This document shows positions 56,304 to 63,998 of a DNA stretch of 64,000 nucleotides, one piece after another. The first letter of the stretch is position 1. Each line of letters starts with the position of its first letter. The notes beneath the pieces were generated by a model that searched no databases, had not been told where the DNA came from, and saw only the letters and a list, made by a program, of their open reading frames with translations. Source of the DNA: Methanospirillum lacunae (lineage in GTDB: Archaea; Halobacteriota; Methanomicrobia; Methanomicrobiales; Methanospirillaceae); NCBI RefSeq assembly GCF_003173355.1, contig NZ_QGMY01000002.1, positions 744,001 through 808,000 of the forward strand, read 5' to 3'. Made by a program: the position numbers and the translations under genes.

Positions 56304-57464
56304 TCACCATTTCTTCAGTTCTACCGGGAATAAACCCCTCCCCCATTCCATCTTATTCTCAATACAGAGAGTTACATCATCCGGGGAAATTGAGTCTGCA
56401 TTGGTTGGATCATTCAGGTATTCTGCCCGGAGCCTCATGATCTCATCTATAATGATTGCACTCTGGGTCCCGATAATTACCCGGTACCCGGATTTTACCA
56501 TCCTGACAAAGAGCCGGGCAAGGTGTATCTGCTGGTCCGGGGTCAGATGCTCTTCGGGTTGTTCGATGATGAAGACCTCGCCCGGGATATGTCTGTATTT
56601 CAGCGAGAGAAAGATAGGGATGAGACTTGAAACATCAGGTGAAGTCTCATTTGGAGGAATGTCTCTATCACCGGTTCTGACCACGATCTCATACCTCCCT
56701 TCAGGATCAATAATAAGGTGGGAAGATGTCCTGATGAGATTGTTTTCATCTTCTTTCCAGGTTTCAGAGTCATAATGATCATTCCTGAATGAACAACCAT
56801 CAAACTCCTCGAGGAGTTCATTTACGATAGGTGCATTTTGGGCAGGATCCAGTTCTTGATCATACACATTTGTAATTTCTCCCCGGTTTGTTGGGAGATA
56901 CAATGAGTGAGGAAGATTTCCTTCAGAGATTGTGATCACCCATATCCCGATTGCTCCTGAAATAAGCGAACTAAATGCGGTTGTAGATGTTCCCGGCCTT
57001 GGAAGTTTTTTCGGTCCTTTGGCAAACAGTTCGAGAGGGAAGGGGCATTCTGATTCGCAAAATTTTAATTCGCCACTCTCGTTGGTTTTGAGATACGCCC
57101 CGGCTGTTTTTGATTTCAGGATTATTTCCGCAGCACGAGTTTTTGAACGTCGCAGATCCGAAGTTTCCACTCCTAAATATGATTCAAGCCGGTTCACCAG
57201 ATTTCGTTCGTATACTTCTCTCAGAGCTGTCGTGGCAACAAGGTCAACTACGTTTTTATCAGGATACTGTTTTACTTTAGGTGCTCTTTTGAGATCCGGG
57301 ATATTGGTTCCATAACTCTCGTGAAGGCGATAGAGCGTGTGGATGAACCTGAGAAGATAGAGATAGTCTGAATGTTCTGGTCCGGTGAGGATGGTCAGAG
57401 GTGTTATTGGAATCTCAGCCTGTTGATACGGGCCGATGTTTTTCAGGATCAGGGTGAGAGTCAT
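56304..57464 (-). CDS. AAA/ABC-type ATPase relative with degenerate P-loop
   Basis: The 386-residue protein has the layout of OLD/DUF3696-type ATPases: an N-terminal LKNIGPYQQAEIPITPLTIL, where the Walker A should follow, and a C-terminal PGEVFIIEQPEEHLTPDQQ Walker B with D-loop, then the GTQSAIIIDEI switch. At residues ~28-38 the P-loop reads TGPEHSDYLYL, so the usual G-x-x-x-x-G-K-S/T is gone. The signature region (PDVSSLIPIFLSLK) is also weak. It may bind but not hydrolyse nucleotide, or be a decaying relative of defence-type ATPases. The first 28 bases of its start region recur beyond the neighbouring permease gene. Confidence 0.7.
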   Translation of the reverse strand: MTLTLILKNIGPYQQAEIPITPLTILTGPEHSDYLYLLRFIHTLYRLHESYGTNIPDLKRAPKVKQYPDKNVVDLVATTALREVYERNLVNRLESYLGVETSDLRRSKTRAAEIILKSKTAGAYLKTNESGELKFCESECPFPLELFAKGPKKLPRPGTSTTAFSSLISGAIGIWVITISEGNLPHSLYLPTNRGEITNVYDQELDPAQNAPIVNELLEEFDGCSFRNDHYDSETWKEDENNLIRTSSHLIIDPEGRYEIVVRTGDRDIPPNETSPDVSSLIPIFLSLKYRHIPGEVFIIEQPEEHLTPDQQIHLARLFVRMVKSGYRVIIGTQSAIIIDEIMRLRAEYLNDPTNADSISPDDVTLCIENKMEWGRGLFPVELKKW

Positions 57465-59221: not shown

Positions 59222-60010
59222 TTAAAGACTAGATTTTCTTATCTTAATAGTTGAAGGATTACCATTTTTATCATCCAATAGTAGTCTAATTTCAGATTCT
59301 AGGTCATTGTCAGCGTTTGGACGCATAATAATCTCATCTATTAAAAATTCAAGATTAACACTAATACGTTTTCCATTTTCTGAATCTATTCCGGCATTTT
59401 TATCTTTGAGCAAATCGTAAGGGTCTGGTTTAGTTATCAAGACCCGATATTCATATTCATCACGGTATGCAGGTCTTTTATAGAATAACCTGAAACAGTT
59501 ATCAGTTAGGTATTGTTTATTATCCAACATTGTTGTATCATAAGTAACAAATCCAATAACAAATTGATGTTCACTGTGATTTTCTACTATTTTCTTTATT
59601 TTTCCAATAGATGTTTTTATCGCAACTTGACTGCTGCCTCCTTCAAATTCATTCCACATATATAGGGACTCTTCTTCACTTGTATGAAAGCAACATCCGT
59701 ATGAATAGTGCGTTAATATCGAATAGAACTGACAATGCGACTCATAATTACCATAAAGTCCGGGATCCTTATCTGATAAATTATAATCCTTTCTAAATTG
59801 ATCATAAATTTCATTAAAGTCATTTTGAGAGATAATACCTTCCCTCTTATCTTTCCAATCTGATATTCGAGAAAAAAATAACTTCTTTGTTTGAATAAAT
59901 TTCTTAAAACAATCAAAATTTGAATAATATTTATACAGAGATAACTTTTCATCAGGTGAAATTATTAAATGGTTACCATCTATTGCATCTACTAATTCTG
60001 ATAAACTCAT
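59222..60010 (-). CDS. DUF2971 family protein
   Basis: The 262-residue protein matches DUF2971: the start LYKYYSNFDCFKKFIQTKKL, LFFSRISDWKDKREG, CFHTSEEESLYMWNEF and the end YEYRVLITKPDP / DEIIMRPNAD. The family is broad, in bacteria, phages and archaea, often in islands and near defence genes, and its function is unknown. A palindromic TATA box 26 bases before the ATG implies a leaderless mRNA. It lies at the edge of the GAGCGGG motif cluster, so it may belong to the integrated element. Confidence 0.8.
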   Translation of the reverse strand: MSLSELVDAIDGNHLIISPDEKLSLYKYYSNFDCFKKFIQTKKLFFSRISDWKDKREGIISQNDFNEIYDQFRKDYNLSDKDPGLYGNYESHCQFYSILTHYSYGCCFHTSEEESLYMWNEFEGGSSQVAIKTSIGKIKKIVENHSEHQFVIGFVTYDTTMLDNKQYLTDNCFRLFYKRPAYRDEYEYRVLITKPDPYDLLKDKNAGIDSENGKRISVNLEFLIDEIIMRPNADNDLESEIRLLLDDKNGNPSTIKIRKSSL

Positions 60011-60062: not shown

Positions 60063-60357
60063 GAGCGGGAGAAAAAACTCAATCCTTGGTTAGAGCGGGA
60101 CCTCCCGCTCTCCTTTGCCCCATATATCCCGGGTAAAACTAAGTTTTATCTAATTATTATAAGTATTAATAATAGAGAGCGGGAGGAAAGGGTCAGAGAG
60201 ACCAAACCCATAAACCGAATTTCCTCTCTCTCCGTGTGTCTGTGGATCCCGCTCTCCCGCCCAATGATCCACCGGACAACGGAATACCAACAAAATTAAT
60301 AACCAACGAAAATATGAGAGCGGTACCTTCCCGCTCTCATCACTATTCTCCCGCTCT
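60063..60357. repeat. Iteron-like GAGAGCGGGAG cluster around AT-rich core, candidate replication origin
   Basis: Eight copies of (A)GAGCGGGA or its complement occur: forward near 60063, 60092, 60175 and (as GAGAGCGG) 60316; reverse ending near 60111, 60256, 60340 and 60357. Two pairs form hairpins: AGAGCGGGA-cc-TCCCGCTCT (60092-60111) and ATGAGAGCGG-7 bases-CCGCTCTCAT (60314-60340). A stretch almost free of G and C (about 60133-60174) lies in the middle, like a DNA-unwinding element. The cluster sits next to a primase-ATPase gene. Iterons plus an AT-rich core are the usual design of plasmid and viral origins, but it could instead be an operator array. No known ORB motif is seen. Confidence 0.55.
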
Positions 60358-60415: not shown

Positions 60416-60727
60416 TTATCTAACCAAACTAACAGGCCCTTTCCGGTTCTTTCCTTCCATCACAGCTCTCACCCGGGTGACCGGAATTGCATATCTCACC
60501 CCCTTAATATCAAGATATACCCCCCGGCCACTCACAGACAGCCGGACTCTCCCCCAGGACAACTCTTCATCACCAAGACCAGCAAGAACATATACCAAAA
60601 CCCTCCCCGGGATTTCAAATCTTCCCACCTCATCAACAAACACTACAAGGTTCTCATTCTCTTTGATAATCCGCCCACAGAGCACAAAACCGGGTTCAAC
60701 TTTTTCTTCAACAATAAACTGACCCAT
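60416..60727 (-). CDS. Small beta-rich protein of the integrated element
   Basis: The 103-residue protein starts at ATG 60727 with a strong GAGGTGA ribosome binding site eight bases upstream. Alternating hydrophobic strands (FVLCGRIIKENENLVVFVDE, RVLVYVLAGLG, YLDIKGVRYAIPVTRVRAV) suggest a small beta-barrel. No family was recognised. It lies 77 bases downstream of the primase-ATPase gene on the same strand and beside the motif cluster, so it may be a copy-number, DNA-binding or accessory replication protein. Its codon choice is richer in G+C than typical genes here. Confidence 0.65.
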   Translation of the reverse strand: MGQFIVEEKVEPGFVLCGRIIKENENLVVFVDEVGRFEIPGRVLVYVLAGLGDEELSWGRVRLSVSGRGVYLDIKGVRYAIPVTRVRAVMEGKNRKGPVSLVR

Positions 60728-60804: not shown

Positions 60805-63696
60805 TTACGGAGGACCGGGACTGAGAGAATCCGTGTCAAAATTCTCGCTGATCGTCTTTTTGTAGCACTGATCACACACATGAACCCGGGAATCTGGATC
60901 AGACCAGACAGCAGGCTGAAGATTGCAGACCTGACACCGGCCACTGGGAACGTCTCGTTTCACGAGATTCTTTGTATCAATCACGCCCGGAAGAGTGATG
61001 ATAGATGCGACCTCACGCGAAACTGTACGTTTATAGCACGAACGACACAGCATTCTTTGAATGGCCTTTGAATTTTCAGCAACCCGCTCCTTGTACTGTG
61101 TCGGGCATTTTCCACAGACACTACATCTCTGGCGATCTCCATGACCTGATATCCTGACAAAATTTCGTGACTGCACATCTGCCATCGACATCGAAGTATC
61201 GCAAACATCCGGATTTACATGAGCCGGATAAGATGATTCATTCATATCATCAGGATCATTCCCATCAGAGTCATCAGATTCCTGATATTCATCATCACAG
61301 AGCCAGACACTCCCGCCTTTCTCCCAGGCTTTGTACAACGCAGCATCCCAGAGATACACCCGGGTCCGTCTCATTGTTGAGCAGCCTTCATCACCACTCG
61401 TTACCGTCCGGTCAAGAAACGAAACAGCCGGACACTTGTCAAGCAGACCGGAGTAGGTCTTGCCATACGAATGATACCCGTGAAGAAGTTTTCCTACCGA
61501 TGAATTTGTAAGACCTGAGGCATGCTGCAGATCTCCAATCGTCACCTCATACTGATTCATCGAAGACAAAATACCAATGAGATTACTCTCACGTTTCGTC
61601 AGTTTGTTGGCCTGGGCTCCGGTCTCACCATTCAGCATTGCAAACAGCCGTGCTGCTTCATTAAAATCAGTTCTATCAGCAATCACACAGGTCACAGAAC
61701 CGATGGTTTTTGTCTCACGCTGACGCTGGTTGAGTGCTGCATTCGTTCTCACCAAATCAAGCAGCATATCAGGATTTCGTCTGTTTTCAGCAGACTGAAA
61801 CCTGATCTTTCTTGCATATGGAATGACCACCCAGACCGGTGAGAGAGACTCCCAGATCTGCCTGCATACAAGCACTTCCTCAGATTCAGGACTAGTAGCA
61901 TCAGGGAGATCTTCAGCACCGGAAAGTGTCCTGTCAAGAACTCTCTTATCCTGATCTTCTGAATCATCGATCCAGCAGGTCAGCATCCGGTTAAAGACCT
62001 GATCATCACCGGGACCTTCAACCTTTGCAATCCACCAGACACACCGTTCAGGAATTACATAGGTCTCAGCCTTTCGATCCTTGCTCACTGTCCGGTAGGG
62101 AAACGGCTTTTGAAAAGAAGTTGTAACACCTTTCAAAACTTCCTGCATCTGATCTGAAAGACTCACATCATCAAGTGCAATGACACTGCCTGCAGAAAGA
62201 TCTTCCATGTAAAATAATGCCTTGTCACTCAGCCTGCCTTCAAGTCTGAACTTCTTTGGAACAAGACTCTTCATCGTCTCGATAGCATGAGACTTCCCTT
62301 TCCCTGACTCACCGGTAATAGAAACATGAAGACCTTTACTGTTGATGACAGACCGGGACGCAAAAGAATGAATAAGACATTCTGCAACAGTCTGATCTCC
62401 TTCATGAACAGATGCAAACGTTTCAAGCATGAAAGAGAGAGGATCAGCAGATTCAAGGATCCCTGTGCACCGGGACAAGATAGACTCATTCACCTCATCC
62501 GGCCCATCATCACCGTGACCGGAAGAATCACTTGAGCCAGATGCTTCGTACAGGGCTTTAGCCTGTGCCATCTCTTCTTCAGAAAGGGGAAGCCGTCCTT
62601 CAGCCTCCATCTTTGCTCTGATCCGTTCTGATCGCAGTTTTGCGAGTCTTGCCTCAAAATCCAATTTGGGTGGATCAAACCTGGCACGAAGTTCTGGCCA
62701 TCTCTGTTTCCCTCCTCCACATGATGTATGATGGCATCCTGCAAAGATCGCCCCGTTCTCAAACTGAATAGCATATGCTCCGTCAGTATGAGCTGAAGAG
62801 AACGGACAGGAATCAAACACAAAAACCTTGCCACCCTGATACGGTTTTTCAGTATACGAAAAACCATGACCAGAGAGCCATGATCCAAGATCTATCCGGG
62901 AATCAGATTTCAGGACATGTTCTTTATCCGGTCCAGTGCAAAGATCAGGGTGCTCAGATGAAAGAAGCAGACGAAGCTTATCTTCACTAACAAGAGAATC
63001 AGAAGACTGTGGATCAACAATGGACTTGAGAATTTTCGATCTCCGGTGTGGTCGTTCTAAAAGATTATCTCCTTTTCTTGACAGCGTCCCATACACTTTC
63101 CAAATTCTTGAAGCGTTGAAATTGGCTGTATCCACCATGCAACGTGAATCAGAAAACCGGCGATCAAGCAGCTCTAGAACAGATTTAACAATCGCTTTAC
63201 TTTCATCATTCTGAGGGAGATCAATCCGGTACAGAAGATGAGCACCATTTCCAGAATCAGCAATAATCGGATCAGGCCATCCAAGCCCGGAGAGAAATTC
63301 TGCAATTGTATCAGCCCTGCAGATGGCATCTGCATGCTCACTCTCAGAAGAAGAGACTCCTGACGGTCTGCGGGGATCGATATCAATCGGCAGCCACCGT
63401 CGCCTGATAATATCAGAATCGCCAGTACTTGCATCTTTTTTCCCAAGTCTGAACTTGATCCGGTTTGCACGACGGACAAGAAGAGCAGGATCAACATCAT
63501 TCAGAGTGACATAAATTCCTGAAACCTTGCTATCTGCATCATACTTGAGAATTTCTGTAGCAGCTTTCTCCCGGTCTGAAAAGTACCCGCTACAGATCCC
63601 ATCATCCCGAATGATCCTGATCTCAAAGATGCCGTCATGCTGAGAAAGAAGATGAAGAGAAGTAATTATCTCCTTTACCTGTATCTCTTCAGGCAT
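60805..63696 (-). CDS. Primase-polymerase/ATPase replication protein of an integrated element
   Basis: ATG 63696 (GAGGTG just upstream) gives 963 residues. The N-terminal AEP primase-polymerase domain has DxD in LPIDIDPRR (~105-107), H153 in DSGNGAHLLYR and D189 in MVDTANFNASR, then YGTLSRKG. A CHC2-like zinc knuckle (CPFSSAH, GCHHTSC, ~295-325) follows. An ATPase module has Walker A GESGKGKS (~460) and Walker B VIALDDVSL. A winged helix (~695-745) and two C-terminal zinc ribbons (CSVCGKC...CRSC and CQVCNLQ...CDQC) close it. It should prime and unwind DNA of a plasmid- or virus-like element. Visible G+C is higher than in its chromosomal neighbours, a sign of transfer. Confidence 0.85.
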   Translation of the reverse strand: MPEEIQVKEIITSLHLLSQHDGIFEIRIIRDDGICSGYFSDREKAATEILKYDADSKVSGIYVTLNDVDPALLVRRANRIKFRLGKKDASTGDSDIIRRRWLPIDIDPRRPSGVSSSESEHADAICRADTIAEFLSGLGWPDPIIADSGNGAHLLYRIDLPQNDESKAIVKSVLELLDRRFSDSRCMVDTANFNASRIWKVYGTLSRKGDNLLERPHRRSKILKSIVDPQSSDSLVSEDKLRLLLSSEHPDLCTGPDKEHVLKSDSRIDLGSWLSGHGFSYTEKPYQGGKVFVFDSCPFSSAHTDGAYAIQFENGAIFAGCHHTSCGGGKQRWPELRARFDPPKLDFEARLAKLRSERIRAKMEAEGRLPLSEEEMAQAKALYEASGSSDSSGHGDDGPDEVNESILSRCTGILESADPLSFMLETFASVHEGDQTVAECLIHSFASRSVINSKGLHVSITGESGKGKSHAIETMKSLVPKKFRLEGRLSDKALFYMEDLSAGSVIALDDVSLSDQMQEVLKGVTTSFQKPFPYRTVSKDRKAETYVIPERCVWWIAKVEGPGDDQVFNRMLTCWIDDSEDQDKRVLDRTLSGAEDLPDATSPESEEVLVCRQIWESLSPVWVVIPYARKIRFQSAENRRNPDMLLDLVRTNAALNQRQRETKTIGSVTCVIADRTDFNEAARLFAMLNGETGAQANKLTKRESNLIGILSSMNQYEVTIGDLQHASGLTNSSVGKLLHGYHSYGKTYSGLLDKCPAVSFLDRTVTSGDEGCSTMRRTRVYLWDAALYKAWEKGGSVWLCDDEYQESDDSDGNDPDDMNESSYPAHVNPDVCDTSMSMADVQSRNFVRISGHGDRQRCSVCGKCPTQYKERVAENSKAIQRMLCRSCYKRTVSREVASIITLPGVIDTKNLVKRDVPSGRCQVCNLQPAVWSDPDSRVHVCDQCYKKTISENFDTDSLSPGPP

Positions 63697-63794
63697 AACC
63701 ACCTCGACAGATACTAAAAACTCCTTTTACACGAGCAGTTCTGCAGGAGAAGTCTCCTGGATGATACAAGGATTGAACATCAGATCTATGTAAA

Positions 63795-63998
63795 TTATGA
63801 CCTGACATCCTTATACTCTCTAATTTTATACTCTCCAATTCGTACCGCTCCACCTGCATGAATCTGATATGCTTTATAGGCAGAATCCTCAAAAACCCAG
63901 AGTTGAATCAAACCGGGAATTGTATTACTGCGAAAGAGTTCAGAAAGTTCGATGATCTCTCTGCGAAAACACTTTCGTGTAAGATCACGCCTGATGGA
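63795..63998 (-). CDS. C-terminal part of an unknown element protein, cut by window edge
   Basis: The frame is open from the window end to TAA at 63795-63797. The visible 67 residues include KCFRREIIELSELFRSNTIP, GLIQLWVFEDSAYKAYQIHA and the basic end IGEYKIREYKDVRS. No family was recognised. It is transcribed in the same direction as the primase-ATPase, about 100 bases upstream of it, and is likely part of the same element. Confidence 0.55.
   Translation of the reverse strand, partial: SIRRDLTRKCFRREIIELSELFRSNTIPGLIQLWVFEDSAYKAYQIHAGGAVRIGEYKIREYKDVRS

Follow-up and report, generated by a model that had tools for sequence, protein, structure and literature searches.

The array of iterated motifs described here is very probably the replication origin of an integrated mobile element of about 6-8 kb, belonging to the arCOG07809 family, in Methanospirillum. 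The best account of its features is an iteron origin served by an initiator, primase and helicase that the element encodes itself; there are no binding, unwinding or replication data. The window, that is the whole 64-kb stretch of DNA analysed (C2:744001-808000), holds the array, and the module to which it belongs was read past the window's end. In a preliminary description the array had already been interpreted as an iteron origin, and this reading is supported by equivalent arrays in relatives, where layout and spacing are kept. Absent from that description were the multicopy integrated element, the element-specific motif and the location of the origin inside the primase gene in most relatives.

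Anatomy of the array

The anatomy of the array can be established directly from the DNA (Table 1). Eight iterons of the form GAGCGG[G/T]A lie on both sides of an AT-rich core. The preliminary description had counted eight near-identical motifs in both orientations, which are now resolved into seven exact copies of GAGCGGGA and one variant, GAGCGGTA at 60318, distributed over both strands; a ninth copy with one mismatch (60251-60259) overlaps iteron 5. The seven exact copies fall within 300 bp, and there are none elsewhere in the 64-kb window. This number compares with 0.52 expected for the exact 8-mer, and at least seven copies were obtained in none of 100 shuffles. The two motif hairpins that had been proposed were both found, the first consisting of AGAGCGGGA-CC-TCCCGCTCT (60092-60111) and the second spanning 60314-60340. 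The core had been presented as almost devoid of G and C, and its best 36 nt (about 60139-60175) indeed contain only four. Two criteria for an iteron-type origin are met: a short motif clustered beyond chance, and an AT-rich unwinding region adjoining the motifs.

An ordinary scattered repeat was considered and ruled out, since the exact motif is confined within the window to the array.

Table 1. Features of the array and of the genes around it (positions in the window)
Feature	Position	Strand	Basis
Iteron array, predicted element replication origin	60063..60357	.	eight motifs, 0/100 shuffles; layout and spacing kept in relatives
Iteron 1, GAGCGGGA	60063..60070	+	exact motif match
Iteron 2, hairpin 1 left arm	60093..60100	+	exact motif match, hairpin
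Iteron 3, hairpin 1 right arm, left flank of AT core	60103..60110	-	74 bp from iteron 4
AT-rich core, predicted unwinding element	60139..60175	.	4 G/C in 36 nt; core also in relatives
Iteron 4, right flank of AT core	60177..60184	+	exact motif; spacing test
Iteron 5	60247..60254	-	exact motif; ninth copy overlaps
Iteron 6, GAGCGGTA, hairpin 2 left arm	60318..60325	+	variant motif, hairpin
Iteron 7, hairpin 2 right arm	60329..60336	-	exact motif, hairpin
Iteron 8	60349..60356	-	exact motif
103-aa element protein	60416..60727	-	small beta-rich fold, AF2 pLDDT 91, no confident PDB match
965-aa predicted initiator, arCOG07809-type	60805..63702	-	ORF, CxxC pairs, AF2/Foldseek; architecture named in PMC4158269
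Small gene, 3' part in window, runs out of window	63795..63998 (C2:807795-808223)	-	HJR-type nuclease arCOG09441 by position
262-aa candidate defence gene, PDC-S31, likely cargo abutting the array	59222..60010	-	PADLOC

The element and its replication protein

The neighbours named in the preliminary description, a small protein and a primase-ATPase, correspond to ORFs of 103 and 965 aa. The larger protein is composed, in this order, of an archaeo-eukaryotic primase, a Zn region, an MCM-like AAA+ ATPase, a winged helix, a short linker and a C-terminal CxxC zinc domain. Its AlphaFold model (pLDDT 82) has MCM helicases as best match (Foldseek, E 4e-9), and the arCOG07809 criterion of a primase-ATPase-HTH-Zn protein is met on the basis of AF2, Foldseek and CxxC pairs; this assignment follows the description in PMC4158269 and not an arCOG profile search. 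The closest named relatives of this primase are from Methanospirillum. Members of the 103-aa protein family are encoded 3' of the primase at 26 of the loci compared; the fold of the 103-aa protein gave no match below E 0.1 against the PDB. A sequence search of the PDB gave no match. The small gene is present 5' of the primase in 32 loci, with no Pfam or PHROG match.

The module consists, in order, of the array, the 103-aa gene, the 965-aa primase-ATPase, the small gene at the HJR position and divergent genes of 172, 195 and 79 aa ending at C2:810077. The latter trio (L009:12739-14077) is conserved, and many copies have it in divergent orientation to the primase. No family match was obtained for the C6 relatives of the 172- and 195-aa proteins or for the L040 relative of the 79-aa protein; their products are possible surface or virion proteins.

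The complete relative G007 is without positions 58424-66375 (window-based numbering), which places the whole module in a variable segment. In this empty-site comparison the surroundings vary too, so the left boundary of the element is unsure; a 14-bp direct repeat, TTTCTTATCTTAAT, at 59235 and C2:810107 is a possible pair of element ends. The source genome contains seven intact primase ORFs plus fragments, and G007 contains eleven. A tyrosine integrase gene lies 5' of the primase in 11 relatives, overlapping tRNA-Phe in L045. Overlapping contig ends, which would indicate circles, were not found, nor was any free circular form. No full-length relatives were found on plasmids, phages or viruses; what these share is limited to the primase domain or a weak match to the ATPase.

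Arrays in related elements

A search for arrays beside related primases had been proposed in the preliminary description, and they are indeed found in or beside the gene across Methanomicrobiales. The comparison set comprised 66 loci from named Methanomicrobiales genomes. Conservation of the array is an observed fact in this set: repeated motifs are present in most of the full-length homologues, as a rule within the coding sequence of the primase, where a disordered linker connects the winged helix to the C-terminal zinc domain. Other families of the order (G040, G044) show this intragenic arrangement too. Within the genes, linker segments have a median score of 5.1, with 77% reaching 4.2 (n=48), against a median of 2.8 and 8% for 600-nt segments taken from elsewhere in these genes (n=166; p=1e-15), which means that the linker signal is not due to composition. 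No clear array was detected by the scoring method in the homologues L047, L059, L071, L080 and L108. Apart from this, L080:6491-6912 contains twelve direct copies of CCTACAAC on one strand over about 420 bp, perhaps a CRISPR or a tandem array.

In the window and its close relatives the array is found outside the gene. The linkers of this clade score 2.8, with a maximum of 3.2. Linker length is about 53-59 aa in the window, L019 and L040, 86-87 aa in L042 and L043 and about 138-155 aa in relatives whose array is intragenic; the shortfall corresponds roughly to the length of an array, which in the window's clade lies downstream instead. All outside-array loci form one clade in the tree (support 100/100), beside relatives with intragenic arrays, so a single move out of the gene is the simplest account. 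That the array changed place is documented by these comparisons, and the window's clade appears to have lost it from the shortened linker in one relocation.

In 42 of 46 loci the intragenic motif copies use both strands and more than one codon frame, and overall all codon frames are represented, which argues that the DNA, and not a repeated peptide, is the selected feature. The arrays have a common order of orientations, namely several forward copies, then a reverse copy, the AT region and a forward copy, then mostly reverse copies. The outward-facing pair flanking the AT region is separated by 73-76 bp (14 arrays) or 87 bp (16 arrays) in 30 of 32 arrays, the other two having other spacings; in the outside arrays it is 74 bp in six out of six. 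Motifs were hand-aligned for this test, the pair was chosen using the position of the AT core and not the exact spacing, and 13 further arrays had no qualifying pair at one mismatch.

Motif specificity and recognition

Iterons differ between elements and are consistent within each of them: GAGCGGGA, GGGCGGGA, GGGCGGCA, TCGCGGAA, TAGCGGTA, CTTCCGCA, CTTCAGCA and others have been found, most of which fit NNNCNNNA. Within a single genome the element copies have different motifs in most cases, although GAGCGGGA is common to the window element and the C6 element. Motif and adjacent initiator gene are demonstrably inherited together, motif distance tracking protein distance throughout, with r about 0.5. 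An additional correlation (partial 0.20, p 0.0005) remains for residues 601-690 and is highest at 620-659, and columns 637 and 659 best separate elements with GCGG-type iterons from those with CTTC-type iterons. As judged from these alignments, this region may be a lead to the recognition surface, not a proof of it; the motif alignment was manual, and tests of this kind are inflated by relatedness.

Orphan arrays and defence genes

Arrays without primase are located at C6:50.9k and C18:85k, with a weaker one at C6:~59.5k, and a tandem pair is present in G007. The C6 arrays at 50.9k and 62.4k are direct repeats around Shango genes, with the weaker copy at 59.5k between them. Defence genes adjoin several arrays: Shango SngABC, a HEC-01 pair, a TIR-SIR2 protein and PDC-S31.

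Several details of these regions were also recorded. In L012:9894-18720 (C6:50.9k-59.7k) direct-orientation arrays stand on either side of a Shango-like SngABC operon, and at L012:8804 a partial array adjoins a PDC-M68-like pair. In L133:7210-11020 (G007 C1) two arrays 89% identical and 3.4 kb apart enclose a HEC-01-like ATPase/nuclease pair, with a DrmD-like (DISARM) helicase further out. The orphan array at L014:9269-9610 (C18), without primase, is less than 6 kb from a TIR-SIR2 protein gene. The window itself encodes, at 56304-57464, an AAA_21 ATPase matching defence ATPases (PD-T4-4, NsnB).

The orphan arrays may be junctions left by recombination. Ectopic copies of the lambda ori block lambda replication (PMC4488673), and for this reason a decoy role of orphan arrays is possible, though untested. 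A wider proposal, in which the array is a movable module acting as docking and decoy site, as recombination hub for defence cargo and as competitor for incoming initiators of related elements, with initiator-less orphan copies at the points where defence genes were joined on, is speculative and rather unlikely.

Alternative functions of the array

The explanation that competes best with an origin, and still a distinctly less probable one, is a recombination or integration site, at which elements and cargo would insert by crossover between copies. The recurrence of arrays as direct repeats beside cargo (C6; G007 C1) agrees with it, as does the fact that no integrase was seen in the window element. 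However, most relatives have the array within the initiator gene, the 11 already mentioned encode a separate tyrosine integrase, and a recombination site needs no element-specific multi-copy iterons around a melting core; besides, the duplicate arrays could have arisen secondarily through homologous recombination.

Iterated motifs bound by an element protein would also suit a centromere-like partition or incompatibility locus, for which the 103-aa protein is a candidate binder. This function is improbable: neither ParA nor ParB was seen among the recurring neighbours, and the AT core, the fixed spacing and the nesting in a primase-helicase gene favour initiation over partition. Even less support remains for a transcriptional operator of the replication genes. 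The window array does sit in an intergenic gap, but it is 3' of both genes there and in the 3' third of the gene in most relatives, and it is therefore not at the replication gene promoters. A packaging signal would follow from the satellite virus nature proposed for these elements in PMC4158269, but it is scarcely credible when no terminase or capsid has been recognised and the arrays of most relatives lie inside the initiator gene.

The host chromosomal origin is ruled out for practical purposes: the GC-skew analysis suggested in the preliminary description does give a local change of sign near 59-60 kb, but this coincides with minus-strand genes, both orc1/cdc6 genes are elsewhere (on C7 and C5) without an array nearby, and the array belongs to a multicopy, variable element.

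Proposed mechanism and significance

For the element origin favoured here, the following steps can be envisaged from the predicted domains and the array layout, by analogy with SaPI Rep. The 965-aa initiator would bind the iterons, with the specificity residing in its C-terminal half, and molecules placed on the two outward-facing iterons, 74 bp apart, would form a complex that melts the AT core. The MCM-like AAA+ ring would then load and unwind the DNA, and the fused primase domain would lay primers to be extended by a host polymerase. Binding, melting, priming and replication in vivo are all inferred.

These results provide a predicted origin for widespread and little-studied archaeal mobile elements, with up to 11 intact copies per genome, and the replication of arCOG07809-type elements thereby becomes testable. 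They also document, across the order, a predicted origin that lies within the gene of its own initiator and was once cleanly relocated to the outside; for these elements, such an intragenic location had not been described before. The diverged pairs of iterons and initiators are a natural set to decode DNA recognition by an MCM-type initiator, and arrays with their initiators could supply replicons for methanogen vectors.

Comparison with known systems

In archaeal Orc1/Cdc6-ORB origins, inverted repeats flank an AT-rich core. The criterion of an adjacent orc1/cdc6 gene is not met by the window array, whose motifs, in contrast to those origins, are element-specific. The earlier remark that the motif is not the archaeal ORB fits its location far from both orc1/cdc6 genes.

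Small integrated elements with an arCOG07809 protein (primase, helicase, HTH, Zn finger) and an HJR nuclease were described by Makarova et al. 2014, who proposed a satellite virus (PMC4158269). The elements of that study (Mpal_2033, Methanosphaerula) share with the present one the primase-ATPase-HTH-Zn protein; the HJR nuclease, judged here from gene position, and the integrated state may be shared as well. The ATPase was called SF1 or DnaA-like there, whereas the fold predicted here matches MCM best. No origin is described for arCOG07809 elements in PMC4158269, and arCOG07809 is named in no other paper found by literature search.

The PrimPol-PV1/PrimQH primases of mobile elements contain a primase, a Zn region, a P-loop helicase (MCM in some) and a winged helix proposed for origin recognition (PMC5862659), all of them shared with the window protein, whose family has in addition an extra zinc domain and an origin-bearing linker. 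Neither Mpal_2033 nor Methanomicrobiales are mentioned in PMC5862659.

The closest positional analogue is the ori of lambdoid phages, whose iterons and AT-rich tract are situated centrally within gene O (PMC7466680). The criterion of a lambda O-type intragenic origin is met by most homologues and not by the window array. Unlike in lambda, iterons are found here on both sides of the core and in both orientations, and in one clade the array has left the gene. Lambda O is not known to be a primase-helicase.

The closest functional analogues, as initiator helicases of mobile elements with downstream iterons, are SaPI Rep and SCCmec Cch2. Both have been shown to be active, and through C-terminal domains they bind iterons that lie immediately downstream of the gene encoding them (PMC7581432). 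The location of iterons downstream of the initiator gene, as in the SaPI Rep-ori, is met in the window and its clade, and SaPI5 Rep also fuses primase and helicase domains. The SaPI criterion for the protein is not met, as the window protein has no DUF927 or D5/Primase_C Pfam match and an MCM-like fold. Those systems are bacterial, with DUF927 or D5-type helicases, whereas the present family joins an archaeal primase to an MCM-like ATPase and its origin is usually intragenic.
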